Assembly: GCF_013344685.1 (NCBI RefSeq)
Contig: NZ_CP050137.1
Location: 1,988,001 to 2,052,000, forward strand
DNA from: Sphingomonas sp. CL5.1
Lineage (GTDB): Bacteria; Pseudomonadota; Alphaproteobacteria; Sphingomonadales; Sphingomonadaceae
DNA length: 64,000 nt
Direction of reading: 5' to 3'
The notes under the pieces were generated by a model. That model was not told the DNA's origin. It ran no database searches and saw only the letters and a program-made list of their open reading frames with translations. Positions 20,787-42,753 of the stretch are shown in pieces (position 1 is the stretch's first letter; each line of letters starts with the position of its first letter). A program made the translations under genes and the position numbers.

Positions 20787-20800
20787 TTACGGATCGGTAA
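20787..20800. promoter_or_regulatory. Regulon operator A (TTACGGATCGGTAA)
   Basis: Exact consensus copy TTACGGATCGGTAA upstream of hyuA. Outer arms TTAC/GTAA are inverted repeats. The same 14-mer recurs before four other transcription units of the block. Confidence 0.7.
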
Positions 20801-20891
20801 GTGTCCAATGCGGTTCCGTGAGTCAATGCTATTTTTATGTCGCGGCGCTGATCGGGAAGGCGACCCGGCGTCAAATCTCCACACCGTTGAC

Positions 20892-20926
20892 TTACGTATC
20901 CGTAATAGTAATATTCGGATCGGTAA
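20892..20926. promoter_or_regulatory. Regulon operators B1 and B2
   Basis: Two copies lie in front of the kinase/phospho-lyase operon: TTACGTATCCGTAA (20892-20905) and ATTCGGATCGGTAA (20913-20926), with 21-bp start-to-start spacing (two helical turns). B2 lies about 18 bases before the TTG start. Their number makes this the strongest control point of the regulon. Confidence 0.65.
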
Positions 20927-20944
20927 AGAAGGGTTGTTTAAAGT

Positions 20945-21940
20945 TTGGGTATAAACGATTCCAGAACGGCAGTTTCATCGCCATCGAAGCCTGTCGTGAG
21001 TCCGCGCGAGGCCGAGACGCTCTGGCGGTGGGCTTTTGCGGGAGATGCGACGGCGATTCCGATTGCCAGTGAATTGGACGCGATCTTTCGTATGCGCTCC
21101 GCGACATGTGGGAGTGATTATCTTCTGCGGATCGTTCCCGCGCGGGAAGCTCGCGTCGTCGACTTGCAAGCCGCTTTGCTCGACTACCTGGGAGACGTCG
21201 TACCGGATCTTCCCGTCCCGCGATTGTGTCGCAACGCCAGCGGCCAGCTGGTTACGCTACTGAATACCGGCCAACTGGCGCTTGCGATGACTTTCCTGCC
21301 CGGCCGGCCCTTGGCCGCACTGAAAACCGAGGAGATCGATCGCGGCCGGATATTCGCGGAGCTTGCCCGGCTGGATCGGGCACTGGCGAATTTCGATCAT
21401 GAAGCGGCCGTCCGCGACCTGTTGTGGGATGTTTCGCGAGCGGATCAGGTTCTGTCCATGGTAGAAGAAATCGGCGACGCGGACCTGCGTCGGCTTGCCG
21501 CTCAGGCATTGGCTGACTGGGAGGCGGAAGTCATGCCCATCCTGCCGACCTTGCGACAACAGATTCTCCACAACGATTTCAATCCATCCAACATATTGGT
21601 GGATGCAAATGCTCGGGTCACGGGAATCATCGATTTTGGCGACGTGGTGAAGGCGCCGCTGATCTGCGATCTGGCGACCGCCGTTGCGTATCAGGATCCG
21701 CGAGGCGATTTCGGCGATCTTCTGGCCATCGCGATCGACGGCTATGAGGCGGAGTACCATCTTACTCCCACAGAGCGAAGCATCCTGCCGGTTCTGGTGC
21801 GTGCAAGAGCGGCGATGGTTGCCGCGATCGCTCACTGGCGGTCTGCCCGAATGCCCGCGAACCGTGATTATCTCCTGCGGAACGTTCCGGCGGCCGCACG
21901 CCTCCTTGCTGCCGCTACAAGCGACCTCCACCGCATCTGA
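20945..21940 (+). CDS. APH-family kinase (hydroxylysine-kinase-like)
   Basis: A 331-aa aminoglycoside-phosphotransferase-fold kinase. The catalytic loop is visible as LHNDFNPSNILVD and the metal-binding aspartate as IIDFGDVVKAPLICDLA. It lacks a signal peptide and is cytoplasmic. The proposed TTG start is 12 bases after GAAGGG; a GTG at 20996 is the alternative. It is followed after 14 bases by a class III PLP enzyme of the phospho-lyase type. In animals and bacteria this pairing (hydroxylysine kinase with 5-phosphohydroxylysine or O-phosphoethanolamine phospho-lyase) removes a hydroxyl and an amino group. I infer that it phosphorylates an amino alcohol; the exact substrate is unknown. Confidence 0.8.
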   Translation: MGINDSRTAVSSPSKPVVSPREAETLWRWAFAGDATAIPIASELDAIFRMRSATCGSDYLLRIVPAREARVVDLQAALLDYLGDVVPDLPVPRLCRNASGQLVTLLNTGQLALAMTFLPGRPLAALKTEEIDRGRIFAELARLDRALANFDHEAAVRDLLWDVSRADQVLSMVEEIGDADLRRLAAQALADWEAEVMPILPTLRQQILHNDFNPSNILVDANARVTGIIDFGDVVKAPLICDLATAVAYQDPRGDFGDLLAIAIDGYEAEYHLTPTERSILPVLVRARAAMVAAIAHWRSARMPANRDYLLRNVPAAARLLAAATSDLHRI

Positions 21941-21954
21941 AGGAAGAGTGAGAG

Positions 21955-23277
21955 ATGACGCGTGACACGTCCGGCATGCTGAATTCCTATTCCGGATCCA
22001 TCGAAGTCGAGGCCAGCACCCAAGCCCTCATCGAGCGCCGGCGCGGGCTTCTAGGCCCGGCCTATCGCCTGTTCTACGAACATCCGATCCATATCGTGCG
22101 AGGCGAGGGAGCGTGGTTGTTCGATGCGGAAGGATATCGCTATCTCGACGCCTATAATAATGTAGCGTCAGTGGGGCATTGTCATCCCCATGTGGTCGCG
22201 GCGATCGCGCGGCAGGCAGCGACCCTCAATACCCATACACGCTACCTCGGCGCAGAAATTCTTGACTATGCCGAACGGATCCTGGCGACCATGCCCGATG
22301 ATCTGGGTAACATCATGTTCACCTGCACGGGCAGTGAAGCCAACGACCTTGCCCTGCGCGTGGCGCGCCATTGCACCGGCGCCCGCGGCGTAATCGTCAC
22401 GCGGCTGGCGTATCACGGCATCACGGAAGCGGTTGCCGCAATTTCGCCGTCGCTCGGCTTTGGAGGCGCGCAGCCACCCTATGTCCGCGTCGTCTCCGCT
22501 CCGGACAGTTATCGGCTTGGGAAAGAGGCGACTGCGATTCTCCTGCGCGAAACAGAGGAGGCGATCGCGGATCTGAAGGCGGCGGGGCATGGCGTCGCTG
22601 CGATGGTTTGCGACACTATTTTCTCCAGCGATGGGGTATTCGCGGAAGCCGGCCTGCTCTCCGAAGTAGCACGGGTTGTGCAGCGGGCCGGGGGGCTGTT
22701 CATCGCCGACGAAGTGCAGGCGGGTTTTGCCCGTACCGGCATGACGATGTGGGGATTCCAGCGGCACGATATGGTGCCGGACATCGTGACGATGGGAAAG
22801 CCGATGGCGAACGGTCACCCGGTCGCGGCGGCGGCTATGCGTCCTGACCTACTTGCGAGTTTCGGCGAGAACACGCGCTACTTCAATACGTTCGGTGGCA
22901 ACACCGTGTCCTGCGCGGCCGCTGCGGCCACCCTGGACGTCATCGAGCGGCAAGGACTAGCGGCGGGCGCCACCGCAATCGGGGCGCAATTCACCGATCG
23001 GCTGCGCGCGTCGATGGACCGTCATGAGGCAGTCGGCGACGTTCGGGGAGCGGGCCTGTTTTTGGGCGTGGAAATCGTTGCCGATCGCGCCAAGCGCACC
23101 CCCGATTCGGCCAGGGCGCAGGCGATCGTCAACGGGATGCGCGATCGACGAGTCCTTATCAGCAGCACCGGTACATATGGCAATGTCCTGAAAATCCGGC
23201 CGCCGTTGATCTGGGAAGAGGATCATGTCGCGATTTTTGCCGAGGCGTTCGACGCGACATTGGATGCCTTGTGCTGA
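21955..23277 (+). CDS. Class III PLP enzyme, phosphoethanolamine/phosphohydroxylysine phospho-lyase type
   Basis: A 440-aa class III aminotransferase-fold protein. The segments YLDAYNNVASVGHCHPHVV, LNTHTRYLGAEILDYAERI and FTCTGSEANDLALR match the AGXT2L1/AGXT2L2 phospho-lyase branch, not ordinary transaminases. PLP contacts are seen in FIADEVQAGFARTG, and the Schiff-base lysine in VTMGKPMANGHP. These enzymes eliminate phosphate and ammonia from O-phosphorylated amino alcohols to give an aldehyde. The kinase gene directly upstream would supply the phosphorylated substrate. Ordinary transaminase activity cannot be excluded. The following 294 bp to the XRE gene hold no recognisable gene. Confidence 0.85.
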   Translation: MTRDTSGMLNSYSGSIEVEASTQALIERRRGLLGPAYRLFYEHPIHIVRGEGAWLFDAEGYRYLDAYNNVASVGHCHPHVVAAIARQAATLNTHTRYLGAEILDYAERILATMPDDLGNIMFTCTGSEANDLALRVARHCTGARGVIVTRLAYHGITEAVAAISPSLGFGGAQPPYVRVVSAPDSYRLGKEATAILLRETEEAIADLKAAGHGVAAMVCDTIFSSDGVFAEAGLLSEVARVVQRAGGLFIADEVQAGFARTGMTMWGFQRHDMVPDIVTMGKPMANGHPVAAAAMRPDLLASFGENTRYFNTFGGNTVSCAAAAATLDVIERQGLAAGATAIGAQFTDRLRASMDRHEAVGDVRGAGLFLGVEIVADRAKRTPDSARAQAIVNGMRDRRVLISSTGTYGNVLKIRPPLIWEEDHVAIFAEAFDATLDALC

Positions 23278-23571
23278 TTGTACCCGATCGGAGAGGCCTG
23301 CATCATCAATTATGTGGCCAGCTTACGTGTCGATAATATGCCTTATGGCGTGATCCGCGATTTGAGTTTGGGACGCGAAGGGTTCGCTTCGCCATGGAAG
23401 ATAGGAAGGAAAAATCCGCAATTTGGTGGTGGGCCGTCGCTGCGGACCTTCGAATCGCGCGCACCTGCCTCTTTCCCGTCGTTAGCGACGAACACCATTA
23501 TGTCGTGGGAGCTGGCGAACCGCGTTGTCGGATCAACTGTTCTGCCGCGGAAAAAAGCGTCCGGTCTTTTG

Positions 23572-24288
23572 TCAGTTATCCCCGGCATCCCGCCGTTGCG
23601 CCAGCCGGGCCGCGAATGGTTGCATGTCCTCCTGCGACACCGGATCGACCGTGGTGATGTTCAGCACTCGCGGGCGCGAACGCGCCTTGGCGACATAGGC
23701 GTGCGGCGTTTCGCAATTGAATAGGACACTGGCACCAGCCGGCAACTCGACCGGCGCCCTGCCTTCGACGTGCATGATGACAGTACCACGAAGCACGTAA
23801 CAGAATTCGTAGCCCTTGTGCCCGCGCAAGCCGCCCGCGCTGTCAACGTCAACCGCGCGAATGTCGAAGATCACAGGCTGGATCCTGTCGTTTAGTCGGC
23901 TCGAGAGGTGCGGCGCATAATAAGCGTAACCGGGGACTTCCGTCGGGTCGCCAGAAGGCGGCATGGCGATGCTTATGTCGGAGCCCGAACCGTCCGTCGG
24001 GTCGTCCATCAATTCCGCCCACGATAGACGCAATCCCGCCATAAGCTTTATCAGCGTGGGGAAAGTCGGCGACATCTTGTTCGTTTCTACTCGGGACAGG
24101 GTTGCGGCGGGCACGCCGGTCAGATCACTGGCGCCATTCAACGACAAGCCCTGTTTCTCGCGATGTTCGCGGATGCGTTGGCCAAGCTTTTCCGTGAGAT
24201 TATGATCAGCAAGCTCGCGTTTCCAGGCGAAGCGTTCTGACACCGCGTCCGTTTTGTTAGTCTTGGTTTTTGATGCCTTGCGTGCCAC
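23572..24288 (-). CDS. XRE-family HTH regulator with C-terminal cupin sensor
   Basis: A 238-aa regulator. The HTH domain lies at residues 34-90 (LGQRIREHREKQGLSLNGAS ... TLSRVETNKMSPTFPTL). A cupin_2 domain follows (EFCYVLRGTVIMHVEG, LPAGASVLFNCETPHAYVA). The architecture is that of PuuR-like and other repressors of amine/amino-acid catabolism genes that sense a small ligand in the cupin. It starts with GTG at 24288. It sits centrally in the motif regulon and is the best candidate for its regulator. Its own upstream region shows only a partial motif (TATCCGTATGG near 24299), so the assignment is inference. Confidence 0.85.
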   Translation of the reverse strand: MARKASKTKTNKTDAVSERFAWKRELADHNLTEKLGQRIREHREKQGLSLNGASDLTGVPAATLSRVETNKMSPTFPTLIKLMAGLRLSWAELMDDPTDGSGSDISIAMPPSGDPTEVPGYAYYAPHLSSRLNDRIQPVIFDIRAVDVDSAGGLRGHKGYEFCYVLRGTVIMHVEGRAPVELPAGASVLFNCETPHAYVAKARSRPRVLNITTVDPVSQEDMQPFAARLAQRRDAGDN

Positions 24289-24381
24289 TATGTTTATATC
24301 CGTATGGTCCGGTGCGTCCGTTCTTATCCATAGACATTGCGCATGTCGATTGAAGTAGCGCGGCGATGATATCGAGGCGAA

Positions 24382-24830
24382 TCATTGGTTACGTGCCGCG
24401 CTGGCGATCACCTTGCCCACGAGGCGACGATCCGCCGGCGCCTTGACGGCAGTGTCCGTGGTTGCGGCATGTGATGCCGGAACATGCCGGATATGGGCAT
24501 CGTATCCTCTCCCGGCTTATGTCCAGCACTCCGCGCCTTTCAACAGAAGGAGGTTTGCAGCCGTGATGCCGACTCGGCATAGACGCCGCCAACAGGATTA
24601 AACATGCAAATGATCGCGCATCCGTCCGCCCCGGCTATATCCGCGGCCAGGTCGTGGTGATCATTTTGTACCGCTGGTAGATCAGTACGGCTCCAGCCCC
24701 GCCGGTTCGGGCAGCCTCCGCCCTGTCGTCGGAAAAGATTGCGGCGACGACATGCACTGGCGGCGACCTGCCAAAGCCGCGCCGCTGCGGTTGAGTAGAG
24801 CACGCGCGAGTGATGTTCCACAGACATGAT
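24382..24830 (-). pseudogene. Remnant of a quinone oxidoreductase (MDR/zinc-less) gene
   Basis: The C-terminal half of an NADPH:quinone oxidoreductase-like protein can be read in several frames on the minus strand. The pieces are VLYSTAAARLWQVAASA (for VLVHSAAGGVGQ...), VAAIFSDDRAEAARTGGAGAV, FNPVGGVYAESASRL, and the C-terminal ADRRLVGKVIAS ending at a TGA (24382-24384). These are colinear in family order but separated by frameshifts, and the N-terminal half is missing. The remnant begins just after the CoA-ligase stop, so it was probably the last gene of that operon. Confidence 0.6.
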
Positions 24831-24845
24831 ACGACGACTGACGGA

Positions 24846-26381
24846 TCAGACCAGCGCGCGCAGTTCTCGCTTCAGCACCTTGCCGCTCGCGTTCTTTGGC
24901 AACGACTCGGCGATGACCACCCGCTTGGGTAGCTTGAAACCAGCGAGCCGCGTGCGGCAATAATCGATCACTTCGGCTTCGGTGATGGCCTGGCCCTGTC
25001 GCGCGACCACCACAGCGGTAACCGCCTCGATCCAACGGGGATCGGGCATGCCGATGACGGCGGCCTCCGCGATCCCCGGATGACCATAAAGGACTTCCTC
25101 AACCTCGCGCGATGATACGTTCTCGCCGCCCGATTTGATCATGTCCTTCTTGCGATCCACGATGGTGATATAGCCGTCGGCGTCCATGACGCCGAGGTCG
25201 CCGCTGTGAAACCATCCGCCCGCGAAAGCCTCTGCGGTCCGCTTTGCATCGTTCCAATAACCAATCATGAGTTGAGGCGATTGATGGACGATTTCTCCGA
25301 TCTCGCCAGCCGGAACATCGTGCATCGCATCATCGACGATGCGGGTGGAGACATGAAGCGTCGGGCGTCCGGCGGAGCCGGCGCGGTCGCCATGTTCGTG
25401 GGGAAACAGGACCGTCGCGACTGGTGCGATCTCCGTTTGCCCATAGAGGTTCCATAACCGCAGCGCAGGCAGCCGGCGGGCAAGCTCGCGCAGAATCTCC
25501 ACCGGCATTATCGATGCGCCATAATAGCCGCACGCCAGTTGGGAAAGATCGGCATCGTCGAGGAGCGGTGATCGCAGGATGCCGATCCAGACGGTCGGCG
25601 GCGAGAAGAAGGATGTCACTTTATATCGGGAAAGCAATGGAATGAGATTATCCGGCGACGCCGTAGCGGTGATGATATTCGTGGCGCCGGACTGGAGCGC
25701 GGGCCCGAGCATCGCGTCTAGCTGGGCGCAATGAAACATTGGTAGCGCATGGAGCGCTACGGTTCGCGCCGACCATTCGCAATCGATGACGCAAGATTGG
25801 TATTGCCACAACACCGCGCCATGCGTGAGCATTGCGCCCTTGGGGCGAGATTCCGTACCGCTCGTATAGATGATCTGCAGCAGATCGTCCGCCGAGACGA
25901 CTTCGTCCGGTATCGGGCCGGGCCGGCATAACGTGTCCCACGATGGAATACCGTCCGGCGGCGCTATACCTTCTCCCGCAATACCGAAAATTGCTTCCAC
26001 GGCTGCGGTACGAGCGTCCAGGCCGAGTGCCTTTGTCGTCCGGTCGACGAATAGCAGGCGTGCGCCGGAATGATCGAGCACATAACGCACTTCCTCTGCG
26101 GTCAGCATGAAATTGATGGGAACCAGGACCGCCCCGATCCGGGCGACCGCGAAGCGGAGAGCGGCGAAGACATGGCTGTTGCGCGCCAGGATCGCGACGC
26201 GATCACCCTTCGCGATGCCGCGATCGATCAGGCCGCGACCTAGCGCATCCACGATGTCGTCGAACATCAGATACGACCAGCTTATCTCGCCGCAGATGAT
26301 GGCGGGCTTGTTACCGTGCCGCGCGGCGCTCCTGCGCAACAAGGTTGACAAGGATTGGTGGCGAGCCTGATCGACGTGCAT
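24846..26381 (-). CDS. AMP-dependent acyl-CoA synthetase/ligase
   Basis: A 511-aa ANL-superfamily ligase of normal length. Motifs are P-loop YTSGTESRPKGAM, the adenine-binding NLYGQTEIAP, the hinge GGWFHSGDLGVMD, and the catalytic lysine in PKNASGKVLKREL. It activates a carboxylic acid to its CoA thioester via the acyl-adenylate. GAGAGGAAGAG precedes the ATG. It lies 77 bases downstream of the C-C hydrolase gene and belongs to the same unit, driven from the 27.74-kb operator. Its product would enter the acyl-CoA dehydrogenases encoded at 38.4 and 40.1 kb. The acid could be aliphatic or aromatic. Confidence 0.9.
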   Translation of the reverse strand: MHVDQARHQSLSTLLRRSAARHGNKPAIICGEISWSYLMFDDIVDALGRGLIDRGIAKGDRVAILARNSHVFAALRFAVARIGAVLVPINFMLTAEEVRYVLDHSGARLLFVDRTTKALGLDARTAAVEAIFGIAGEGIAPPDGIPSWDTLCRPGPIPDEVVSADDLLQIIYTSGTESRPKGAMLTHGAVLWQYQSCVIDCEWSARTVALHALPMFHCAQLDAMLGPALQSGATNIITATASPDNLIPLLSRYKVTSFFSPPTVWIGILRSPLLDDADLSQLACGYYGASIMPVEILRELARRLPALRLWNLYGQTEIAPVATVLFPHEHGDRAGSAGRPTLHVSTRIVDDAMHDVPAGEIGEIVHQSPQLMIGYWNDAKRTAEAFAGGWFHSGDLGVMDADGYITIVDRKKDMIKSGGENVSSREVEEVLYGHPGIAEAAVIGMPDPRWIEAVTAVVVARQGQAITEAEVIDYCRTRLAGFKLPKRVVIAESLPKNASGKVLKRELRALV

Positions 26382-26458
26382 CTCTTCCTCTCTTGTCGTC
26401 CGCCTTTCTGACGGATGACCTGCTGGTTGCCGTCCAGGTCTGGATCGCTTTATTCCGT

Positions 26459-27706
26459 TTAGCGATTAGGCTTGAGCAGCAGCCCCGGAAGTGCCGCTTG
26501 GTCAATGCCAAGTTTGTCCGCGAGCCAATCGCAGATATATTCCATGCCAAGTGTCAGATTGTCGATCTGGCAATGCGATGCGCCAGTTTCCTCAGCGGTG
26601 AACACTTTCATGGTTACATCCTGGCCAGCGGCTTTCGAATAGGCGTAGGCTTCCTCGGCCAAGTGGAAACCGGCATGATCAAGTTCGCCTTCCACCATGA
26701 GATAGGGGCAACGAATCTTGTCCTGCACCCCTTCGAGCGAGAAGTCGGCAAGCTTCTCCAGGACGGCATCGAAACCCTCCAGCGTTCCTTCGCCCGGCAC
26801 GCCAAGAATCCAGTGCAGATGCCGGACCGCGATACGGGATGGATTGTTCGCCGGCACGCCGACACAGCGTTGCGCATTCCAGATCACGCCGTCCGATACC
26901 ACCGCTTTCAACCGATGTTCGAAACTGGCTGCGCGCGGAGCGTAATAGCCACCCAGGCTGGCGCCGTAGAGGGCGATCCGGTCAGGGTCGACGTCGGCGC
27001 GGGACTCCAGATAGTCCACGCATGCACCTACCGGCACTTCCGTATCGAAGCGCGACCGGAGCTTTTGCCGTCGCAAGGTGCCACCCTGTCCGGGCAAGTC
27101 GACCAATAGCAGCGACAGGCCGCGCGCGAAGGCGTGACGGGTGATCTCGTGCAGCAGTTCGTCCTTGAACTCATCCAACCCGCCAAAGCAGATCACCACT
27201 GGATGCCGGTCAAGCGAATATGGCGCGCGAAGGAAATATGCGTCGAGATGCGCGCCGTTCTCATAGGGGACGCGGACGACCTCGCCCGCGGGGTCCATGC
27301 GCCTCATATATTCACGCGAACAGCCTTCGATCAGGTCGAGCAGCTGCAATCGCCGCGGATCATCGTGGCGCAGGAAAAATTCGGCCGACCGGAAATAATT
27401 CGCCGCGCGCAGCCAATTGTCCCGAGCGGTTTGCACATGGCCGATCGCCAACGCGGCCTCTGCCCGGGCCTTGTTGCGATGGCCGAGCGCGGTCCACTCC
27501 TTATGCCAGCTCTCGTCGTCACCGGGTGAAATGCGGGTGCCGGCCTGAAAGCACTCGCTTATGGTGCTGGCGCCCTCCTGCGCTGCCCCCAGCACGCGCA
27601 TGAACTGGAAAGAATAGTCCGGATTGTCGGGCCACTGCATCCAACCCGCCGGCTGATACTCGCCCCGGCGACCGGCGATCGCGGTTGCGCAAGTCTGATC
27701 GTTCAT
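26459..27706 (-). CDS. Alpha/beta hydrolase, 2,6-dihydroxypseudooxynicotine hydrolase-like
   Basis: A 415-aa cytoplasmic serine hydrolase with a helical N-terminal domain (residues 1-135) before the alpha/beta core. The nucleophile elbow is GASLGGYY (Ser250), an acid lies in VEGELDHAG, and the His in TGASHCQ. This long N-terminal domain and the motif set are those of the DHPON hydrolase group, which splits a C-C bond next to an aryl or vinylogous ketone in nicotine degradation; FrsA-like esterases are the alternative. AAGGGG precedes the ATG. An exact regulon motif lies 37 bases upstream. It would release a carboxylic acid for the CoA ligase encoded next. Confidence 0.75.
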   Translation of the reverse strand: MNDQTCATAIAGRRGEYQPAGWMQWPDNPDYSFQFMRVLGAAQEGASTISECFQAGTRISPGDDESWHKEWTALGHRNKARAEAALAIGHVQTARDNWLRAANYFRSAEFFLRHDDPRRLQLLDLIEGCSREYMRRMDPAGEVVRVPYENGAHLDAYFLRAPYSLDRHPVVICFGGLDEFKDELLHEITRHAFARGLSLLLVDLPGQGGTLRRQKLRSRFDTEVPVGACVDYLESRADVDPDRIALYGASLGGYYAPRAASFEHRLKAVVSDGVIWNAQRCVGVPANNPSRIAVRHLHWILGVPGEGTLEGFDAVLEKLADFSLEGVQDKIRCPYLMVEGELDHAGFHLAEEAYAYSKAAGQDVTMKVFTAEETGASHCQIDNLTLGMEYICDWLADKLGIDQAALPGLLLKPNR

Positions 27707-27742
27707 ACAAACCCCTTATGCGAGCAATATTCCATGCGGGTA

Positions 27743-27756
27743 TTACGGATCGGTAA
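27743..27756. promoter_or_regulatory. Regulon operator C (TTACGGATCGGTAA)
   Basis: Exact consensus TTACGGATCGGTAA 37 bases upstream of the alpha/beta hydrolase ATG (27706), on the promoter side. It is identical over 14 bases to operator A. Confidence 0.7.
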
Positions 27757-27826
27757 TAGTTTTGTCGAGCTATTTCGCGCGGTGAATCACGAGGCTGAAC
27801 AGAGAGCGGTCGAATCACCGCTCCCG

Positions 27827-28429
27827 TCAGACTGCAACGCGGAAGCTCGCGGCAGTCGCTATCTCGGAAAGCGGTTTGCGGTCGCTGGGTGCTTCTCTGG
27901 CCCGTAATTTTTCCGGGAGGATATCGGGTGCCGCCCTGCGGCCGATCGCTGCGGCCGCCTCGATCCGCCATGCCGCGGGAATGTTCAGAAGCGACCGGGC
28001 AAGATCGAAGTCAATGCCGGTCATGGCATGAGCATGATAGCCCAGCAGCGTTGCTTGCAGGGCGATCTGGGCCCAGGCGGCTCCCGCATCGAAGCTGTGC
28101 GTGTGCGATGGATTGCCGGAATCGTTCATTGCACATTCCGACACGAAAACGATCAACAGCGATGCCCGACATGCCCAGTCCCGGTTGAACGGCAAGAGTA
28201 GAGAAAGGAAATGATCAAACTCGGGATGATCGCGTTGCGCATAGATGAAGCGCCACGGTTGATAGTTGAACGCTGACGGCGCCCATCTGCCGGCGTCGAG
28301 AATGGTCAGAATATTGGCATCAGGCATGGCTGATCCATCAAAGGCACGCGGTGACCAACGGTGCAGGAATAATGGGGCAACCGCGCTCGTGCTGGTTCGC
28401 GGTGTCGCTGTAATGGAGGCCTCGGTCAT
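27827..28429 (-). CDS. Nitroreductase-family flavoprotein
   Basis: A 200-aa FMN-dependent nitroreductase-fold protein. Family segments are RWSPRAFDGSAMPD near the N-terminus, LDAGRWAPSAFNYQPWRFIY, and the GAAWAQIALQATLLGYHAH core. Such enzymes reduce nitro groups or quinones, or supply or use reduced flavin. It is coupled by an ATGA overlap to the RibBA-like gene and is last in the TBDR-amidohydrolase-RibBA-nitroreductase unit. It could provide FMNH2 for the two-component LLM monooxygenase at 35757, or reduce a pathway intermediate. Both are inference. Confidence 0.85.
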   Translation of the reverse strand: MTEASITATPRTSTSAVAPLFLHRWSPRAFDGSAMPDANILTILDAGRWAPSAFNYQPWRFIYAQRDHPEFDHFLSLLLPFNRDWACRASLLIVFVSECAMNDSGNPSHTHSFDAGAAWAQIALQATLLGYHAHAMTGIDFDLARSLLNIPAAWRIEAAAAIGRRAAPDILPEKLRAREAPSDRKPLSEIATAASFRVAV

Positions 28430-29571
28430 GGTTGTGCTCCGGCGACATGTTGATCGTCTGTGAAGCCGATGGGGTGGTCCCCCACGATGTTCACACCAAA
28501 GGCGTCCACTCCATATCCTCGCGGCGGCGGCGTGTTGGTCAGGCGGACAATGTCGTGGATGCCCAGATCAGCCAGAATCTGTGCACTGATCCCCAAAGTC
28601 CTGATCATCTGATCGCTATACGGATGACTGCTCGGCTCGACTTCGGGCTCGACGCTCAAGTCCTCCGGTTCAATAAGAACGATGACTCCGTGTCCGGCTT
28701 CGCCGACATGCATCATGGTACGGTGCAGCAACTGAAAATCCGATCCCGGCACGCTTAGTATGTCTGACCGGCGGGAGAGGCGATGAATTCGGACTGGGGT
28801 GGGCGAGGTTGGGTCGATCTCGCCCTTGCACAACACGATTACCTCGCTGTTGTCGATCGCGCTGCGGTAGCGAAGCATGCGCCACTCGCCCCCATATTGT
28901 GACAGCAGCGGTTCGTCGCCAATGCGAGTGACCAGATTGTCGTGCCAGCGGCGATACCCGATTAAATCCCGGATCGTGCCGACCTTCAATTCGTGACGCT
29001 GCGCGAAGGCGCGCAACTGATCACCGCGCGCCACGGCGCCCGTCTCATCGAGAATTTCGCAGAGCACCGCCGACGGATTCAGTCCCGCGAGCCTTATTAT
29101 GTCCACTGCCGCTTCGGCATTTCCGGCGCAAGCGAGAACGCCGCCGTCCCGAACCACCACGGGGAAGACATGGCCCGGCACCACAAGTTCATCCGGATCG
29201 CGGGTGGAAATCGCGACCGTGATCGTTCGGGCGCGATCCGCGGCGGAGATTCCCGTCGTCACCCCCGTGCGCGCCTCGATCGACACCGTGGCGGCGATGC
29301 GGGTTCGCGGCGCCGCATCGCCGACCATCGGCGGCAGTCCCAGTTCGTCGACACGCGCCCGAGACAATGCTAGCCGGATCAACCCGCGCCCGTGCGTGGC
29401 CATAAAGTTGATGGCTGCGGGCGTCACCATTTGTGCCGCGATCACCAGATCCCCGGGGCTGTCGCAGCCGATTTCATTGACCATGATGAACATGCCGCCA
29501 TTTCCCGCCAATGCGATAAGATCGGCGGGAGCCGGAACGAGGGCGCGATCATGAGCCATGGGCGTCGACAT
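28426..29571 (-). CDS. RibBA-like protein with degenerate catalytic sites
   Basis: A 381-aa homologue of the bifunctional riboflavin enzyme (DHBP synthase plus GTP cyclohydrolase II). The N-terminal half keeps the fold signature INFMATHGRGLI, GVTTGISAADRARTI and PGHVFPV. The acidic loop normally DEDRENEGD reads VNEIGCDSPGD (Cys36, Asp37), and the metal-binding His of AGHTEA is Asn151 (AGNAEA). The C-terminal half lacks the zinc cysteines of GTP cyclohydrolase II, retaining only a divergent tail. The ATG at 29571 shares one base with the upstream stop (TGATG). Normal riboflavin synthesis is unlikely; a new reaction or binding role in the catabolic unit is inferred. Confidence 0.8.
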   Translation of the reverse strand: MSTPMAHDRALVPAPADLIALAGNGGMFIMVNEIGCDSPGDLVIAAQMVTPAAINFMATHGRGLIRLALSRARVDELGLPPMVGDAAPRTRIAATVSIEARTGVTTGISAADRARTITVAISTRDPDELVVPGHVFPVVVRDGGVLACAGNAEAAVDIIRLAGLNPSAVLCEILDETGAVARGDQLRAFAQRHELKVGTIRDLIGYRRWHDNLVTRIGDEPLLSQYGGEWRMLRYRSAIDNSEVIVLCKGEIDPTSPTPVRIHRLSRRSDILSVPGSDFQLLHRTMMHVGEAGHGVIVLIEPEDLSVEPEVEPSSHPYSDQMIRTLGISAQILADLGIHDIVRLTNTPPPRGYGVDAFGVNIVGDHPIGFTDDQHVAGAQP

Positions 29572-31163
29572 CAGTTCCGTGGCGACTGATAGCGTATGCC
29601 GAGTTGGTCGAGGTAGGTCGGAAACCTTGAGGGCTGGTAGTAGAATTGCTCCATCTGCGGCCGGATCTGACTCATCAAGTTCGCGTTCAGCCAGATTGCA
29701 GGCTTTTGCAGGATCGGATCGTAGTGATCGGTCTTCCTCTGCACATTCTCGAAATAGGCGCGGGCAGCGGTCAGCAATGTCGGGCTGGTCATCGCGTCGA
29801 GGACGGTGAGCGCGACTGCCTTGGCCCCCACCGCGACACCCTTGTGCGCGATCGGGGTGGCCATGGCCATGGCGGATTGCTGGTTGTGACTGATAAGGTT
29901 GGGGATGTTCGCAGGGTAGAACAGGGTGATGGTCGGAACGGTCCACATAATGTTGCCGATGTCGTCCGATCCACCGTTTACCTGTGTCGGATCCGGTGGC
30001 GCCAGCGGGGTGACCGTGGTGCGCAGGCCATCTACCGGACGACCGTTGGCCCGCTGGACTGCTCTGGCGAAGTCCTGGTCGTTCGACGACCAGCGCGGTA
30101 TCCCGACACGTCTGATGTTGGCGAAGGCCGCCTCTGCCAGCGGCCGATTGCCGAAATATTTTGCGGCATAACCCAATACGGTGTGCTTTACAGTCGTGCC
30201 CGTGGCAAGCGCGGCCGCTTCGGCAATCGTATTTCCCGTGTCGTAAAGAGCTCGCACTCCCGCAGACGTTCGGTCGCGGAAATAATACCAGACTGAAGCA
30301 TGCGCGGGAACAATGTTGGGTTGGCCGCCGCCATCCGTGATGACGTGATGCGACCGCTGCGTGAGTGGAAGATGTTCTCGTCGGAAGTTCCAGGCGGTAT
30401 CCATGATCTCCACGGCATCAAGCGCGCTGCGGCCTTCCCAGGGGCTAAGTGCCGCATGTGCGGATTTTCCCGAGAACTTGTATTCCACGGACACCGCCGC
30501 AGTAGTGCCGATGTCGCCGTAATTGGTCGTGAAACGATCGCTGACATGGACGAAGATACAAGCGTCGACATCTTTGAAGACGCCTGCCTGAACGTAATAG
30601 GCTTTGCTCCCCAGCAACTCCTCCGCGACGCCAGGCCAGATCAGCAGGCGACCGGGAATATGATGTCGTTCCATCACGCGCTTGACGGCAATGGCGGCCG
30701 CCACGATTAGCGGCATACCAGAATTGTGTCCTTCGCCGTGACCGGGCGCACCCGCGACCATCGGTGACACCGTGCTGACGCCCGGGCGTTGCGACATGTC
30801 GGTCAGTGCGTCGATATCGCTGCCCAGCGCGATCAGCGGACCGCCTTTGCCCCATGTGGCGATAAAGGCGGTTGGAATTCCCGCGACGCCCTTCTTTATT
30901 TCGAAGCCGTTTTCAGCCAGCCTTTGTTGAAGGAGATCCGATGTTCGAAACTCCTGGAACCCCGGCTCGGCAAAGGAGAATATCTGGTCGACCATGACCT
31001 GAATATTCCTGGCTTGCGCGTCGATCGCAGCGACTGTTTCGGCGCGTTGATCGCCGCCGCCGGCCTCGGCGGGGCTGGAGGTCATGGCGACGCCGGCCAA
31101 TGCCAGCGCCATGCCCAACTTCCTCCGGCGGTACACCTGCCCGATCCTGCCGATCGCGCGCAT
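29571..31163 (-). CDS. Exported M20-family metallo-amidohydrolase (AbgB-like)
   Basis: A 530-aa peptidase-M20 protein. The first ~35 residues form a signal peptide (basic MRAIGRIGQVYRRRK, hydrophobic MALALAGVAM, end SPAEA), so it acts in the periplasm. Metal-binding motifs are GSDIDAL, GHGEGHNSG, the EE pair in VAEELLG, and the late GGSDDIGN/ISHNQ region; SAHAALSPWEGRSA marks the dimerisation domain. The family hydrolyses N-acyl amino acids or amide conjugates (AbgB cleaves p-aminobenzoyl-glutamate). It begins one base after the TBDR stop. I infer that it trims an amide-linked substrate arriving through the receptor. Confidence 0.85.
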   Translation of the reverse strand: MRAIGRIGQVYRRRKLGMALALAGVAMTSSPAEAGGGDQRAETVAAIDAQARNIQVMVDQIFSFAEPGFQEFRTSDLLQQRLAENGFEIKKGVAGIPTAFIATWGKGGPLIALGSDIDALTDMSQRPGVSTVSPMVAGAPGHGEGHNSGMPLIVAAAIAVKRVMERHHIPGRLLIWPGVAEELLGSKAYYVQAGVFKDVDACIFVHVSDRFTTNYGDIGTTAAVSVEYKFSGKSAHAALSPWEGRSALDAVEIMDTAWNFRREHLPLTQRSHHVITDGGGQPNIVPAHASVWYYFRDRTSAGVRALYDTGNTIAEAAALATGTTVKHTVLGYAAKYFGNRPLAEAAFANIRRVGIPRWSSNDQDFARAVQRANGRPVDGLRTTVTPLAPPDPTQVNGGSDDIGNIMWTVPTITLFYPANIPNLISHNQQSAMAMATPIAHKGVAVGAKAVALTVLDAMTSPTLLTAARAYFENVQRKTDHYDPILQKPAIWLNANLMSQIRPQMEQFYYQPSRFPTYLDQLGIRYQSPRN

Positions 31164-31164
31164 G

Positions 31165-33354
31165 TTAGAATTTGGTTTCCAGCGACACGCCATATGTTCG
31201 CGGCTCGCCGGGAGAAGAGGAGGTGCCGACCGTTGCCGCCGTCAGTATGACGGTGTAATACTTATTGGTAAGATTGCGAGCCCAAAATGTAATCTTATGC
31301 CTGTTGTCAAAGTTGAGCGCTACTCTCGTGTTGATGAGTGAATAGGCATTTTGGAACAGAACATTGTCTGGTTCGGGGTAATAGCCATTATTATAGGAAT
31401 AGGTGAGATTGAAATCCGCCGAGACGTTCGAAGCGACCGGCAGCGAATAGTCCACCGCGGCATTGCCGGTCCACCGTGGGGCGCGATACAATTCGTTCCC
31501 GCTGGCGTCCCCGACCACGACGGAATTGCCTCCGCCGGGGAGGGGAACGGCAATGGCAGCGCCGGGGAAGGAAATATATTTGCTGCGAAGGTATTCAACA
31601 CTGCCGGACAACCGCAGCCTTGACGTTAGCAACGCTTCGGCGTCGATATCGACACCATATACCTCCGCGCGCGCGGCGTTACGGATAGTCTGCGTTCCGA
31701 GCACGAACTGACTGAGCTGAATATCCCTGAAGTTGTAATAGAAGGCCGCTAGGTTGAGTCGAAGACGCCGTGCGAAGAGGCTTTATTTCAAGCCGACTTC
31801 ATAGGCGTCGAGCACTTCCGGGCGGACGGGCGGACTGGTCAGCGAACTCGGATTGTATGCGCCGCTGCGGAAGCCTCGATTGTAGCTTACATATGCGAGC
31901 ACGTCCTTCGCGAGATCCTGGTCGACGGCAATTCGCCATGTCATCTTATTGAAAGTCGCGTCAGTATCGTCGGGTACGACATAGGTGCTGGCCACGGTTG
32001 TCCCGTCCGCGGCGTAATTAATCTGCCGGCCCGACAAGCCGCGCTTTTCGGAATTGTAGCGGGCGCCCAGTGTAATGCGGGTATGCTGCAGCACCGGGTA
32101 AGTCGCTTGTGCATAGCCGGCAAAGGATCGCGTCGTTTGGGTTGCGAAAATGTCACGGAAGAAGGACCCGGAAAACGCGATCCACTGCCGGCCGTTCGCG
32201 TCGAAATAATATAGGCCGGCGGTCCATTCCAGCGAGCCTGGTGATCCTCCGTTCAACTGCAGCTCCTGGCTTATCTGCCGTTCTTGAACGCCGGTGTCGA
32301 ACCGGAGCGTGGGTGCGGGGCTGACGTCCGCATCCAGCGCGAAACCATAGTTGGTGCGGCGATAGGCAGTGATGCTGGTGAGCGTTATATCGTCGAAATC
32401 GTGTGCGATGGTGAGGCTCGCTCCACGCGCCTTGGACCGGAAGAACTGATCGAAGGTGGTGGACACTCCATAACGCGGCCCGACGTAGGGCTGCCCGTTG
32501 GCGGCCAGGAAGCCATCCGCCGTGCGGACGGCTAGGCCCGTGTTCGAATCTCGTTCGCTGTAATCGCCGGCCAGCGTGATGCGCGTATCCTCGCCGGGCG
32601 TGAACAACAGCTTGCCGCGGGCGAGAAAACTGTCGGTCGTATTCACGTTGTTGCCAGTGACGGTATTGTAGCCCCAGCCCTTGCCCTGATTGCGATAATC
32701 CAGGACGAGATCGGCCGCGACCCCGTCAACGATGCCGCCCGTGAGATAGCTGCTGGCGGTTACGGTGTTGAAATTCTCATAGCCCACCTTGGCCGAGAAC
32801 CCTGGAGTGGACGATGGGTCGCGGGTGATGATCTGAATTAATCCGCCGGTGGCGTTGCGGCCGAACAAGGTGCCTTGAGGGCCCTTGAGCACCTCAACGC
32901 GCTCGACATTGGCGAGGCTTTCCATGGCGTCGGCCTTCGAGCCGTAATAGACGCCGTCGACATAAGTGGCGATTGAACTCTCGGTGCCGGGACCATTGCT
33001 CGAACTGCCGATGCCACGGAGGAATGGGGAGTTGAGGCCGACACCGCGGGCGACAACCAGACCCGGGGTCACGCTCGCGAGGTCAGAAGTGTCTTCGATG
33101 CCTGAAGCCTGCAGTGTTTCGCTTGTAAAGGCCTGCACGGCGATTGGCACCGACTGAAGCGATTGTTTCCGACGTTGCGCGGTCACGACGATATCGGCCA
33201 AACCTTGTTCGGCGGGCTGTCCGACATCGCTCTTTGCGGGAGGTGATGCCGGTGTCTTGTCGTCGGTAGCCGGAAGCTCCTGCGCCATGGCCAAGTTCGG
33301 CAAGAACATTGTCAGGCAAGTCGACATCAACGCCGCAGTGATACCGGTCCGCAT
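31165..33354 (-). pseudogene. TonB-dependent receptor interrupted by one in-frame stop
   Basis: The outer-membrane receptor is readable in a single frame over about 729 codons, with signal peptide, the TonB-box/plug start IVVTAQRRKQSLQSVP, the plug signature VEVLKGPQGTLFGRNATGG, beta-barrel segments, and the terminal VSLETKF. A TAA (31783-31785) follows AYEVGLK. The reading continues in the same frame as SLFARRLRLNLAAFYYNF. The intact receptor at 42754 has a sense codon (Thr) at the equivalent place, so this is a nonsense mutation (or sequencing error), not a frameshift. The product would lose the last third of the barrel and be non-functional unless the stop is read through. First gene of a unit with two upstream operators. 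Confidence 0.85.
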
Positions 33355-33409
33355 GGCTCATCCCCTTTGATGCAGGACGCATCGATTCCGAATGTTGGCA
33401 GGCTGATCT

Positions 33410-33449
33410 TTACAGATCCGTAAGTCAACTGGAAATTACGGATCGGAAA
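33410..33449. promoter_or_regulatory. Regulon operators D and E
   Basis: TTACAGATCCGTAA (33410-33423) and TTACGGATCGGAAA (33436-33449) form a tandem pair, 26 bp start to start, 55-95 bases upstream of the TBDR start. Both are variants of the 14-mer found at 20787 and 27743. Confidence 0.65.
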
Positions 33450-33593
33450 TAGGTTGCAAAATGGATGCTTCGAGCTGGGCGCGTTCCATCCGGTATAACA
33501 AGGCGGCTTTGGCCCGTTGGCGCGGATGAGCGGAGCAATAAGATCTGCGCGGGGATCAGCGGCCACCGCCAATTCCACCGCGGGCCTGAGAAC

Positions 33594-34334
33594 CTACCGG
33601 ATCGCTGCGGACCAGCAGATGATCGTGCATCGCTCCCTGGCGTCAAGCACGTCAGAGTGCGACCGATCGGTGACGACCAGAAACTGATGGGCCGTCACGG
33701 CGCAGGTTTCCGCCGCGGAGGTTGCCCGAAGCGATCCGGACTCAACAAAATAGACCCGATCCCTTGCAGCTTGCTGGAAGCATGCTCGTGCGCCCGCGTC
33801 CAAAACGATGTGCGACATCGTCATCGCCGGGGTGTCGAACATTACGCGAAGCGTGACCCCGTCGTCGGTACCGGCAAGCGGCTGCACCTCGTCTACGTTG
33901 CGGAACTGCGGGATCGGGCATACGGGAAGCGCCTGCTGCGCCGCAATCTGCTCGGGAGTCAGCAAATGGCTCCATGCGTCGACCCTGGCCGGTCCGAAGC
34001 CACAGATAGAGTTATAAGCCGAGGTGACGGTGAATCGCTCCGTCACGGCGCCCGCCGGTCGCCACATGAACATGCCGCCGCCGAAGTCAACGGCCTCTCC
34101 GCCGTTCACCATGCGCGCATTGCCCGCGACGGTGTAGCAGAATTCATCCCGGTCGTAGGCATAGGGTCGCGCGTGATCCATGCCGGCCGCTGAATGATTG
34201 TATCCGAGATCGAGGCTCGCCGGGCCGCCGCGCATCGCTGTCAGGATGCGGCGGTGCACCTGGCGCCCGGCCCGATGATCGGCTGAAGAGCGGTTGACCG
34301 TGGGGTCTATGTCCCGGGGATCGACTACGTACAT
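33594..34334 (-). CDS. Two-domain cupin protein
   Basis: A 246-aa protein whose two halves both look like cupin barrels: YDRDEFCYTVAGNARMVNGG with PAGAVTERF in the N-terminal half, and VLDAGARACFQQAARDRVYFVESG with VTAHQFLVV in the C-terminal half. Metal ligands are not obvious in the second half. Bicupins may be dioxygenases, isomerases or binding proteins. It is preceded by an MFS permease on the same strand, 49 bases away, with a palindrome at the junction. The role is unknown; it is cytoplasmic. Confidence 0.6.
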   Translation of the reverse strand: MYVVDPRDIDPTVNRSSADHRAGRQVHRRILTAMRGGPASLDLGYNHSAAGMDHARPYAYDRDEFCYTVAGNARMVNGGEAVDFGGGMFMWRPAGAVTERFTVTSAYNSICGFGPARVDAWSHLLTPEQIAAQQALPVCPIPQFRNVDEVQPLAGTDDGVTLRVMFDTPAMTMSHIVLDAGARACFQQAARDRVYFVESGSLRATSAAETCAVTAHQFLVVTDRSHSDVLDARERCTIICWSAAIR

Positions 34335-34368
34335 GAATAAGCTCCGACCGGATGAAGAATGGGCATGC

Positions 34369-34386
34369 TAACCGCGATATCGGTTA
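34369..34386. promoter_or_regulatory. 18-bp inverted repeat between MFS and cupin genes
   Basis: TAACCGCGATATCGGTTA has perfect 6-bp arms (TAACCG/CGGTTA) around CGATAT. It overlaps the MFS stop codon and lies 35 bases before the cupin start. It may be an operator or a processing site; it does not match the TTACGGATCGGTAA motif closely. Confidence 0.35.
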
Positions 34387-35739: not shown

Positions 35740-35756
35740 TAGCTATTCCGCCCCCG

Positions 35757-37082
35757 TCATCGCTCGCTCTCGCGAGCTACGGTGTAGCGATTGGGGACGG
35801 CGGGAAGGCCCAGATTGCCCCGAAACGTGGTCGCTTCATATTCAGTCCTGAACAGCCCCCGTTTCTGGAGGATCGGAACAACCAGTTCATAAAAGTCCTG
35901 CAATCGCCCGACCGAGGCGGTCAGCATGAACCCGTCGACGGCGCCGGCATTGAACCAGCGCTCGCAAGCATCGGCGACTTGCTCCGCGCTGCCGATAAAG
36001 TCCGTGCGGGGGATCGCGAACCGGTGCGCCACCTGACGCAGCGTCAGCTTTTCCTCCGCCACGATCTTTCGGATATAATCGACCTGGCTGCGATAGGCGT
36101 TCTGGCCGACATCGCCCAAATCGGGGAACAATGCATCAGGATCATACTGGCTGAAATCGTGATAGCTGAAGATAAAGCTTACCCAGCCCAGGCTTTCTTC
36201 ATACCGCATGTAATCGCAGGCGTTCTTGTACTTGCGCTCCGCATCCTCCTGCGTTTCGCCCACAATCGCGTCAATGCCGGGCATGAAGACGATATCTTCG
36301 ACGGATCGGCCGAATGAGACGGCGCGACGCTTTACGTCGTCATAATAGTCCTTGGCCTCCTGCATCGACTTGACCAGGCCGAAGATCGCGTCGGCGGTTC
36401 TCGCGGCAAGATCGCGCCCGCCTTCCGACGCGCCCGCCTGGAACAGCACCGGATGACCCTGCGCCGAGCGTGCGATGTTGAGCGGTCCGTCGACGCGAAA
36501 GAATTCGCCCTTGTGCATCAACGGATGCAATTTGGACGGATCGAAGAATACGCCGGTGGATTTGTCCGGCGTAAAGGCGTCGTCCTCCCACGAATCCCAC
36601 AAGCCCTTCGCCACCGCGACATGCTCGCCCGCGCGCCGATATCGATCCTCGATCGGCGGCAGCGTATCGAGGCTGTGATTGTAGGCGGCTCCCTCCAGCG
36701 CGGAAGTTACGACATTCCATCCCGCGCGGCCGTGGCTGATGAGGTCGAGCGAGCTGATCTGCCGCGCGGCGGTGAACGGTTCGGTGAAGGTAGTCGATAA
36801 AGTGCCAACCAGGCCAATGTGCGAGGTATGCGCGGCCAGCGCGCCGAGCATCGTCATTGGCTCTAGCCGGTTCAGAAAGTGTGGCGACGACGTGGGCGTG
36901 ATCGAAACGGTGTCTGCGATGAAGATGAAATCGATCTTCGCGGCCTCGGCGCTCCGCGCTTCCGCGATGAAGCACTCGATGTCGGTGCTGGCATGGGGAT
37001 CGATGTGCGCCCTGCGCCACCCCCAATGGGACCCGCCAATGCCGTCCAGCATGGCGCCCAGCTTCATGAAACCCGACCGCAT
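35757..37082 (-). CDS. NtaA/SnaA/DszA-family LLM flavin monooxygenase
   Basis: A 441-aa FMNH2-dependent luciferase-like monooxygenase of the long NtaA/SnaA/SoxA/DszA group. Visible features are MKLGAMLDGIG at the N-terminus, LEPMTMLGALAAHTSHIGL, ISHGRAGWNVVTS and VLFQAGASEGGRDLAA. These two-component enzymes oxidise C-N or C-S bonds (nitrilotriacetate, dibenzothiophene sulfone, EDTA) with reduced FMN from a separate reductase. The nitroreductase at 27827 or a remote reductase could provide it. The ATG at 37082 or 37067 may be used. Operator F lies 83 bases upstream. It is the most likely oxidative step of the pathway. Confidence 0.9.
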   Translation of the reverse strand: MRSGFMKLGAMLDGIGGSHWGWRRAHIDPHASTDIECFIAEARSAEAAKIDFIFIADTVSITPTSSPHFLNRLEPMTMLGALAAHTSHIGLVGTLSTTFTEPFTAARQISSLDLISHGRAGWNVVTSALEGAAYNHSLDTLPPIEDRYRRAGEHVAVAKGLWDSWEDDAFTPDKSTGVFFDPSKLHPLMHKGEFFRVDGPLNIARSAQGHPVLFQAGASEGGRDLAARTADAIFGLVKSMQEAKDYYDDVKRRAVSFGRSVEDIVFMPGIDAIVGETQEDAERKYKNACDYMRYEESLGWVSFIFSYHDFSQYDPDALFPDLGDVGQNAYRSQVDYIRKIVAEEKLTLRQVAHRFAIPRTDFIGSAEQVADACERWFNAGAVDGFMLTASVGRLQDFYELVVPILQKRGLFRTEYEATTFRGNLGLPAVPNRYTVARESER

Positions 37083-37164
37083 CCGTCTTCTCCCATTGGC
37101 GCCTTTGGCAATCGTATCGGCAATGCGAGCGACCGCGTTTCAACTCGCCGGTGGGATCATACCT

Positions 37165-37178
37165 GTACGGATCGGTAA
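37165..37178. promoter_or_regulatory. Regulon operator F
   Basis: GTACGGATCGGTAA matches the consensus 14-mer except at its first base, 83 bases upstream of the monooxygenase ATG. The remaining 275-bp gap (37083-37357) shows no recognisable gene. Confidence 0.6.
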
Positions 37179-41237: not shown

Positions 41238-41255
41238 ATGCACTCATGAGTGTAT
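41238..41255. promoter_or_regulatory. Palindromic operator between acyl-CoA dehydrogenase and TetR genes
   Basis: CACTCATGAGTG (41241-41252) is a perfect palindrome, extended to ATGCACTCATGAGTGTAT with one imperfect pair. A partial copy, ACTCATCAGT, lies at 41222-41231. It is likely the autoregulatory site of the TetR protein encoded to the right. Confidence 0.6.
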
Positions 41256-41308
41256 TGAGCGGTGCGTCGTTTTCTGTCAACGGCTCAGGGCTTTTGTCGG
41301 GAAATCAT

Positions 41309-42704: not shown

Positions 42705-42753
42705 ACGTATAGGCGGGCGGACGCCGTGAAATATGAGAGAGAGGGGGGAGTGT

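Follow-up and report, generated by a model that had tools for sequence, protein, structure and literature searches.

A 14-bp palindrome as the probable operator of a local XRE-cupin repressor of five catabolic transcription units in Sphingomonas sp. CL5.1

We analyzed a window of 64,000 nucleotides from Sphingomonas sp. CL5.1 (NCBI RefSeq assembly GCF_013344685.1, contig NZ_CP050137.1, positions 1,988,001 to 2,052,000 of the forward strand; coordinates below count from the first letter of this whole stretch), in which seven copies of a 14-bp palindrome accompany five catabolic transcription units: hyuA-hyuB-SDR, kinase-phospho-lyase, FrsA-like hydrolase-CoA ligase, TonB receptor-M20-RibBA-like-nitroreductase, and LLM monooxygenase-MFS-conserved protein without an assigned family. 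We consider it probable, at roughly 85%, that the XRE-cupin protein encoded in the cluster has the palindrome as its operator and is a local repressor of the five units; we infer the binding, the repression, the ligand, and the pathway from sequence.

Putative operator sites in the catabolic cluster

The initial annotation of this region described a 14-bp motif at seven positions. Sites were located by pattern matching to this motif, with mismatches counted on both strands, and a matrix was built from the seven sites. All seven positions were confirmed, with exact copies at 20787 and 27743. The motif is present at each of them, but it is really a palindrome, with the consensus TTAC[CG]GATC[CG]GTAA, and it is exact in only two of the seven sites.

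20787..20800, no strand: operator in the hyuA-hyuB-SDR promoter; exact TTACGGATCGGTAA, 25.0 bits
20892..20905, no strand: operator 1 in the kinase/phospho-lyase promoter; TTACGTATCCGTAA, two mismatches, 22.8 bits
20913..20926, no strand: operator 2 in the kinase/phospho-lyase promoter; ATTCGGATCGGTAA, two mismatches, 19.1 bits, 21 bp from operator 1
27743..27756, no strand: operator in the FrsA-like hydrolase/CoA-ligase promoter; exact copy, 25.0 bits
33410..33423, no strand: operator 1 of the TonB-dependent receptor unit; TTACAGATCCGTAA, 23.5 bits, one mismatch on the minus strand and two on the plus strand
33436..33449, no strand: operator 2 of the TonB-dependent receptor unit; TTACGGATCGGAAA, one mismatch, 22.5 bits
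37165..37178, no strand: operator of the LLM monooxygenase unit; GTACGGATCGGTAA, one mismatch, 21.0 bits

The seven sites scored 19.1 to 25.0 bits with their own matrix, and no other place in the window exceeded 10.9 bits. At up to three mismatches, 16 matches were found in the window (several of them being one palindrome counted on both strands) versus 3.7 expected and a maximum of 8 among 100 shuffles. As had been proposed, the sites lie upstream of the gene starts of five units, and none of the seven falls inside an assigned gene when the hyuA start is taken near 20739. The site at 20787 falls within the longest possible hyuA frame only; because the Sphingopyxis copy begins at the codon matching 20739, this is most likely the hyuA start, and the site therefore lies outside the gene. 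The earlier assignment of sites to units had to be corrected in that the site at 27743 serves the hydrolase/CoA-ligase unit.

Confinement of the palindrome to the cluster

In the genome of 4,567,794 bases, matches with no more than one mismatch numbered five, every one of them between positions 20787 and 37178 of the window, a 16-kb stretch. This confinement bears out the proposal of one local regulon of five units. Places with two mismatches outside the cluster numbered six in the genome, and a reversed control pattern gave five matches (two forward, three reverse). The looser pattern TTACNNATNNGTAA had four exact places in the same genome, all in the cluster; with one mismatch it had ten, namely two known sites, one (31258) in the TonB-receptor gene, and seven elsewhere, and the control had six.

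Eleven off-cluster places in the genome were scored with the matrix. The highest (L009) reached 19.1 bits inside a 408-codon frame, and L007 reached 16.5 bits within a long open frame. Besides, L012 (15.4 bits) lies upstream of a TonB receptor and L006 (15.0 bits) near an SDR; these two might be weak further members of the regulon, though such places occur at the control frequency.

Among 14 genomes of relatives, 30 of the 45 exact TTACNNATNNGTAA places were in XRE-cupin clusters, and 15 were elsewhere versus 20 for the control pattern; two genomes (G944 and G946) had zero exact matches, their sites being imperfect. As far as this pattern shows, the regulon is local in the relatives' genomes as well. 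A scan for the exact palindrome across the family was uninformative (7 of 298 genomes, our own included, versus 3 for the control pattern); none of the six singletons that it returned had an XRE-cupin match within about 1.5 kb.

Seven close copies inside 16 kb could also be the signature of a repeated element, such as a mobile-element end or a REP-like (repetitive extragenic palindromic) sequence, or of chance. We regard this as extremely improbable. Similarity among the sites is limited to the 14-bp core, in part with TTGAC before it, and does not extend to longer flanks; the sites lie upstream of starts and are conserved in other genera; shuffles yield 0.23 such sites per window; and the TTACNNATNNGTAA counts in the 14 other genomes likewise speak against it. 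A mobile repeat was rejected on the cross-genus conservation and on the flanks, which are not common to the copies.

Covariation of the palindrome with the XRE-cupin helix

We compared the XRE-cupin locus with 22 loci of relatives (L040 to L061; 412.5 kb), retrieved by searching the genomes of 84,980 species with aligned relatives of the XRE-cupin protein. A family-wide search had returned, besides the query, only paralogues of at most 39% identity, and its 19 places (L021 to L039; 67.7 kb) were reused as first controls. In the locus scans, a site was any place of at least 15 bits with a matrix trained solely on the window sites. The 22 loci held 54 sites, or 13.1 per 100 kb versus 0.15 in shuffles, with at least one site in 20 of the 22; the 19 paralogue loci held two, both of the form TTTC...GAAA.

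The sites follow one type of regulator helix. In all 19 distinct relatives with the helix A-[TS]-[LF]-S-R (SR type), a TTAC-type site lies 84 to 414 bp upstream of the XRE-cupin match. Over the 98 rows with a readable helix (24 SR type and 74 other; 4 further rows were unreadable), TTAC-type sites were found in 23 of the 24 SR rows (all but L071, a 3.7-kb stretch with the gene of the window itself) and in 0 of the 74 other rows, which include some places present twice and six of which have TTTC...GAAA. The 19 distinct relatives are the 24 SR rows minus L071, L072 (apparently the same genome as L042, with identical contig number, helix, and sites), and L062, L063, and L064, which repeat or nearly repeat L052, L053, and L056. 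Most control loci span about 3.5 kb versus up to 20 kb for the relatives, and the result for the 19 was unchanged within 3.7 kb. The SR-helix loci with the operator come from sphingomonads, Exilibacterium, Variovorax, Burkholderia, and one Phyllobacterium plasmid. This covariation is of the kind expected if the XRE-cupin protein reads the palindrome, and across proteobacteria the comparison indicates this protein as the one that recognizes it.

Which further genes have an upstream site in the relatives varies by locus, the genes being hyuA, the kinase, the TonB receptor, the LLM monooxygenase, and the hydrolase. A comparison of promoters, suggested at the outset, showed that the same genes bear sites in Sphingopyxis panaciterrae (LLM monooxygenase and TonB receptor) and in Sphingopyxis bin28 (hyuA and kinase). 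The S. panaciterrae site pair before the TonB receptor (L041) has a 26-bp spacing identical to that of the window pair 33410/33436.

The window also holds three TetR-family genes (12872-13897, 41246-41932, and 41966-42631), and a 14-bp palindrome would fit a TetR dimer too, with the XRE-cupin protein as a bystander. However, no relative of the three genes was detected in the 22 XRE-cupin loci (E value of 1e-10, minimum coverage of 30%, flanks of no more than 10 kb), yet 20 of the 22 have sites; the motif varies with the XRE-cupin helix; and the TetR genes lie outside the regulon, with a different palindrome (42685-42704) between the TetR gene 41966-42631 and a TonB receptor. The absence of relatives led us to reject a TetR regulator, which we hold to be very unlikely. 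The choice of the XRE-cupin protein as the central regulator candidate thus stands, and this protein is almost certainly the regulator, since the motif accompanies the XRE-cupin gene, not a TetR gene, in 19 of 19 same-helix loci.

That different palindrome, ACGGAACGGTACCGTTCCGT, is perfect and 20 bp long, and the TonB receptor on its other side is encoded at 42733-44970, divergently from the TetR gene. The palindrome is perhaps the operator of this TetR protein itself.

Other helix variants were seen alongside the SR type. Proteins with PEATLSR (L049, L050, and L052) go with TTACATATATGTAA. Some XRE-cupin proteins with an SK-type helix (L030, L032, L059, L060, L073, L112, and L113) have TTTCNNATNNGAAA palindromes nearby, and in L059 and L060 this palindrome separates the regulator from the gene of an FrsA-like hydrolase. 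TTTCNNATNNGAAA is perhaps a sister operator class.

Promoter layout and proposed repression

Putative promoter boxes surround or overlap many of the window sites. The hyuA promoter on the minus strand reads TTGGAC (from 20808)-16-TATATT (from 20786), with operator 20787 in between. At the kinase promoter, TTGACT (20887)-16-TAATAT (20909), operator 20892 comes directly after TTGAC. The hydrolase promoter on the minus strand reads TCGACA (27768)-17-TAATAC (27745), and TAATAC overlaps the end of operator 27743, while the LLM promoter on the same strand, TTGACT (37183)-16-TATGAT (37161), has operator 37165 in its spacer. Operator 33410 is preceded by TTGAC on the minus strand. On consensus matching alone, sites at four of the five units are thus surrounded by box pairs with no more than four mismatches.

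Over 61 sites, TTGAC was found within 9 bases upstream (on one strand) of 15 versus 0.7% of random places. Overlap with a sigma-70-like box pair of no more than three mismatches was seen at 15 of the 61 sites versus 2.5% of random and 4.5% of nearby places. Close site pairs numbered 16, spaced 17 to 26 bp, and 12 of them are 21 to 23 bp apart, or about two helical turns.

We infer that this layout is that of a repressor occluding RNA polymerase. The ligand-free XRE-cupin dimer would bind each palindrome, and at paired sites a second dimer would sit about two helical turns off on the same face of the DNA. RNA polymerase would be excluded because the operator lies over the -35 and -10 boxes or in the spacer separating them. 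A pathway compound binding the cupin domain would then make the protein release the DNA, and the five units would be induced together.

The protein might instead bind the sites and mainly activate, or activate at some promoters and repress at others. The sites of the LLM and TonB-receptor units lie 56 to 96 bp upstream of the start codon, and the boxes of the TonB-receptor promoter are weak, as is often the case in activated promoters. At hyuA, the kinase, the hydrolase, and the LLM monooxygenase, however, the spacer is filled by the operator, which also either comes after or runs into the -35 box or runs into the -10 box. In addition, the Pseudomonas aeruginosa XRE-cupin proteins with determined regulons are inhibitors that occlude core promoters, mostly of neighboring genes (PMC7901475). 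We therefore regard activation as unlikely and prefer local repression.

The XRE-cupin regulator

23572..24288, minus strand: XRE-cupin regulator; HTH_3 2.8e-10, Cupin_2 1.2e-08

No other regulator was found within the cluster. HTH_3 (residues 39 to 93) and Cupin_2 (residues 155 to 204) are joined in a single protein, and its predicted structure (mean pLDDT 78.8, pTM 0.53) shows a helix-turn-helix at residues 50 to 68 and a cupin barrel at 116 to 213. Residues 61 to 68 form the second helix of the helix-turn-helix in this structure, and the differences among helix types fall there. In a fold search, the best hit by E value was the HTH_3 regulator 1y9q, with whole-chain TM-scores of just 0.31 to 0.41. 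PuuR-type NF007408 was the best NCBIfam match (4.5e-15), but its 55.7 bits lie far under the cutoff of 211, and an identity as PuuR was rejected.

Among 396 genomes of the order, orthologue-level matches were limited to our own genome and one other (354 bits, seemingly the genome of L042), the rest reaching at most 140 bits. With such matches so rare in this sample, the XRE-cupin gene is accessory.

The gene's own promoter has a partial site, as the initial annotation stated (5.4 bits at 24292). A strong site in the intergenic region adjoining the regulator gene is absent in the window and present in the relatives with the same helix type; this feature is a trait reported for the P. aeruginosa members (PMC7901475) and lies outside the domain definition. 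Between the XRE-cupin gene and the CoA-ligase gene there are 557 bp (24289-24845) without a clear gene, where the regulator promoter would lie without a strong operator.

Several observations weigh against repression by the XRE-cupin protein at these sites. Beside its gene in the window there is no strong site, the nearest weak matches being 10.4 bits (23323) and 5.4 bits (24292), and the off-cluster place L009 equals the score of site 20913. One of the two peptide search patterns spans the recognition helix, so that the sameness of the helix among L040 to L061 was partly selected, the operator being unselected; the 19 loci include several closely related ones (Burkholderia), which lowers the number of independent lineages; and the helix rule is not absolute, since SR-helix L048 has TTTC...GAAA between two TTAC-type sites. 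As for the promoters, that of the TonB receptor is a weak sigma-70 match with five mismatches at best, sites 20913 and 33436 lack a good promoter of their own, and three quarters of the 61 sites have no adjoining TTGAC or box pair with at most three mismatches. The random promoter controls were unmatched for the A+T content of the operator; the TTGAC count uses no operator letters. Finally, among L040 to L061 the M20 and nitroreductase proteins had no match, and RibBA was matched in L055 alone (39%, some 9 kb from the regulator). We attribute the TonB-receptor unit to a local addition because of these missing and single matches.

Five transcription units and the putative pathway

Genes were assigned with Pfam and NCBIfam profiles and frame positions. 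Where starts are clear, the gaps inside units range from a 4-bp overlap up to 77 bp.

18655..20739, minus strand: hyuA, ATP-dependent amidohydrolase/lactamase-type subunit; Pfam Hydantoinase_A 3.6e-71
16931..18658, minus strand: hyuB; Hydantoinase_B 1.2e-116
16160..16918, minus strand: SDR oxidoreductase; adh_short_C2 2.6e-62
20945..21940, plus strand: APH-type small-molecule kinase; APH 1.1e-27, similar to the N-terminal part of PRK06148
21955..23277, plus strand: class III pyridoxal phosphate (PLP) enzyme of the amino-alcohol-phosphate phospho-lyase type; Aminotran_3 4.5e-73
26459..27706, minus strand: FrsA-like alpha/beta hydrolase; FrsA-like 8.6e-13
24846..26381, minus strand: acyl-CoA ligase; AMP-binding 1.2e-83
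31165..33354, minus strand: TonB-dependent receptor interrupted by an in-frame stop; single frame, one stop, with Plug and barrel profiles matching the two pieces
29571..31193, minus strand: M20 amidohydrolase; TIGR01891 4.2e-53, above cutoff; true start probably slightly downstream of 31193
28426..29946, minus strand: RibBA-like protein; DHBP_synthase 4e-60, GTP_cyclohydro2 7.3e-19; true start probably near 29570
27827..28429, minus strand: nitroreductase-family flavoprotein; Nitroreductase 3.1e-19
35757..37082, minus strand: LLM flavin-dependent monooxygenase (NtaA/DmoA family); TIGR03860, 500 bits
34384..35739, minus strand: MFS transporter; Sugar_tr 3.6e-38, MFS_1
33594..34334, minus strand: conserved protein, no family assigned; 57% homolog in L041 (S. 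panaciterrae)

The last protein had been called a cupin, a name that we withdraw, since it had zero Pfam or NCBIfam matches at an E value of 0.001. The gene order of LLM monooxygenase, MFS transporter, this protein, and TonB receptor is kept in S. panaciterrae.

An APH-type kinase adjoins a phospho-lyase-like class III PLP enzyme, as would be expected of an amino-alcohol kinase and phospho-lyase pair; the best solved relatives of the PLP enzyme are the phospholyase 5g4i and the ethanolamine-phosphate phospho-lyase 6tor. Relatives of the FrsA-like hydrolase include the 2,6-dihydroxypseudooxynicotine hydrolase 2jbw and AntI 6hxa. The best solved relative of the LLM monooxygenase is YtnJ of Bacillus subtilis (481 bits), which we take to be an S-alkyl-cysteine monooxygenase related to the YxeK system. 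On these homologies, the units would serve the uptake and breakdown of a nitrogen-containing, perhaps lactam- or hydantoin-like, compound: HyuAB would open the amide ring, the kinase/phospho-lyase pair would strip nitrogen from an amino alcohol by phosphorylation and elimination, and the FrsA-like enzyme would cleave a C-C or ester bond. Amide-ring opening, loss of amino-alcohol nitrogen, and C-C or ester cleavage are thus the likely steps of the pathway.

Two genes of the TonB-receptor unit deserve mention. The receptor gene has one in-frame stop near 31783, and its S. panaciterrae copy (L041, 14567-16807) is an uninterrupted frame; the stop may reflect a pseudogene, a polymorphism, or a sequencing error. 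The RibBA-like gene, of a type involved in riboflavin precursor synthesis, adjoins the nitroreductase gene in a catabolic unit, and its product perhaps supplies flavin to the LLM monooxygenase.

Several lineages have an FrsA-like hydrolase, HyuAB, a kinase/phospho-lyase pair, and an SDR again next to the regulator, and 12 of 14 genomes encode a homolog of the hydrolase on the same contig as the regulator. In Burkholderia arboris, hyuA, hyuB, kinase, phospho-lyase, hydrolase, and SDR form a single run of genes with products 38 to 61% identical to those of the window, and operators lie before the hydrolase and before the regulator. In Exilibacterium tricleocarpae and a Sphingomonadales metagenome-assembled genome, a beta-keto acid cleavage enzyme adjoins the regulator. 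In Xenophilus (L046, 6309-9826), the regulator adjoins a gamma-glutamyltranspeptidase and an FAD-binding hydroxylase, and an FrsA-like homolog was not found in this genome (G945); the same operator class may serve other pathways.

Comparison with known systems and significance

The system resembles those of the Pseudomonas XRE-cupin proteins (PsdR, PauR, ErfA, and others), local repressors with palindromic promoter operators (PMC7901475). Helix-turn-helix and cupin domains, a palindromic operator, sites on core promoters, and enzyme and transporter targets adjoining the regulator gene are common to both. They differ in the operator TTACSGATCSGTAA with helix A-[TS]-[LF]-S-R found here, a comparison made with the text of PMC7901475. 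In addition, seven sites accompany five units here, whereas most characterized Pseudomonas members have one or two targets, and PauR 29 genes; unlike those members, the window copy has no strong site beside its own gene (PMC7901475). Wang et al. (2025; PMC12565409) used palindromes that precede the gene of the regulator itself to predict XRE motifs, in 223 clusters. A TTAC segment, as in this operator, occurs in two of their test sequences, but in the available part of that article no motif is linked to a multi-operon catabolic regulon.

For the pathway, the nearest described counterparts are partial. In S-(2-succino)cysteine breakdown by B. subtilis (YxeK; PMC9706529), a flavin mononucleotide-dependent monooxygenase and a deacetylase are used jointly, and an LLM monooxygenase and an M20 amidohydrolase occur here. 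No acetyltransferase is among the annotated genes, however, and HyuAB, the kinase/phospho-lyase pair, and the FrsA-like hydrolase have no counterpart in the YxeK pathway as the available part of that article gives it. HyuAB match CapA/CapB of caprolactam degradation best, but at 552 and 237 bits versus a cutoff of 1000 (NF050156/NF050157), so that we rejected an identity as the caprolactamase CapAB; the PLP enzyme here is instead of the phospho-lyase type. Six operator strings had no occurrence in the literature searched, and no paper on the cluster was among the results, supplementary files being outside this search. The region had been called undescribed. This holds for the operator and the pathway but not for the kind of system, since local XRE-cupin repressors are known (PMC7901475). 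Thus, the operator, the regulon, and the pathway appear to be undescribed, with the 223 motif clusters of PMC12565409 left out of the comparison.

More tentatively, and with some doubt, we propose a horizontally traveling XRE-cupin subfamily with helix [IV]P[AGE]A[TS][LF]SR and operator TTACNKATMNGTAA. In its readable helix-operator code, TTAC would belong to SR, an ATATAT core to PE, and TTTC, in part, to SK, and the subfamily would govern an undescribed route through HyuAB, kinase/phospho-lyase, FrsA-like C-C hydrolase, and SDR for a lactam- or hydantoin-type compound. Pseudomonas-type XRE-cupin repressors are thought to travel between bacteria with their targets (PMC7901475), and the Phyllobacterium plasmid relative and the members in Beta- and Gammaproteobacteria fit a joint transfer of regulator and targets.

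If our reading is right, seemingly unrelated catabolic genes can be tested as a single pathway whose switch has a name and whose operator is defined. Searches with this operator could be made for missing pathway members in other genomes, and the regulator could serve as a substrate-sensing probe to identify the compound. The tie between helix and operator would also allow target prediction for part of a very large and mostly uncharacterized regulator family.

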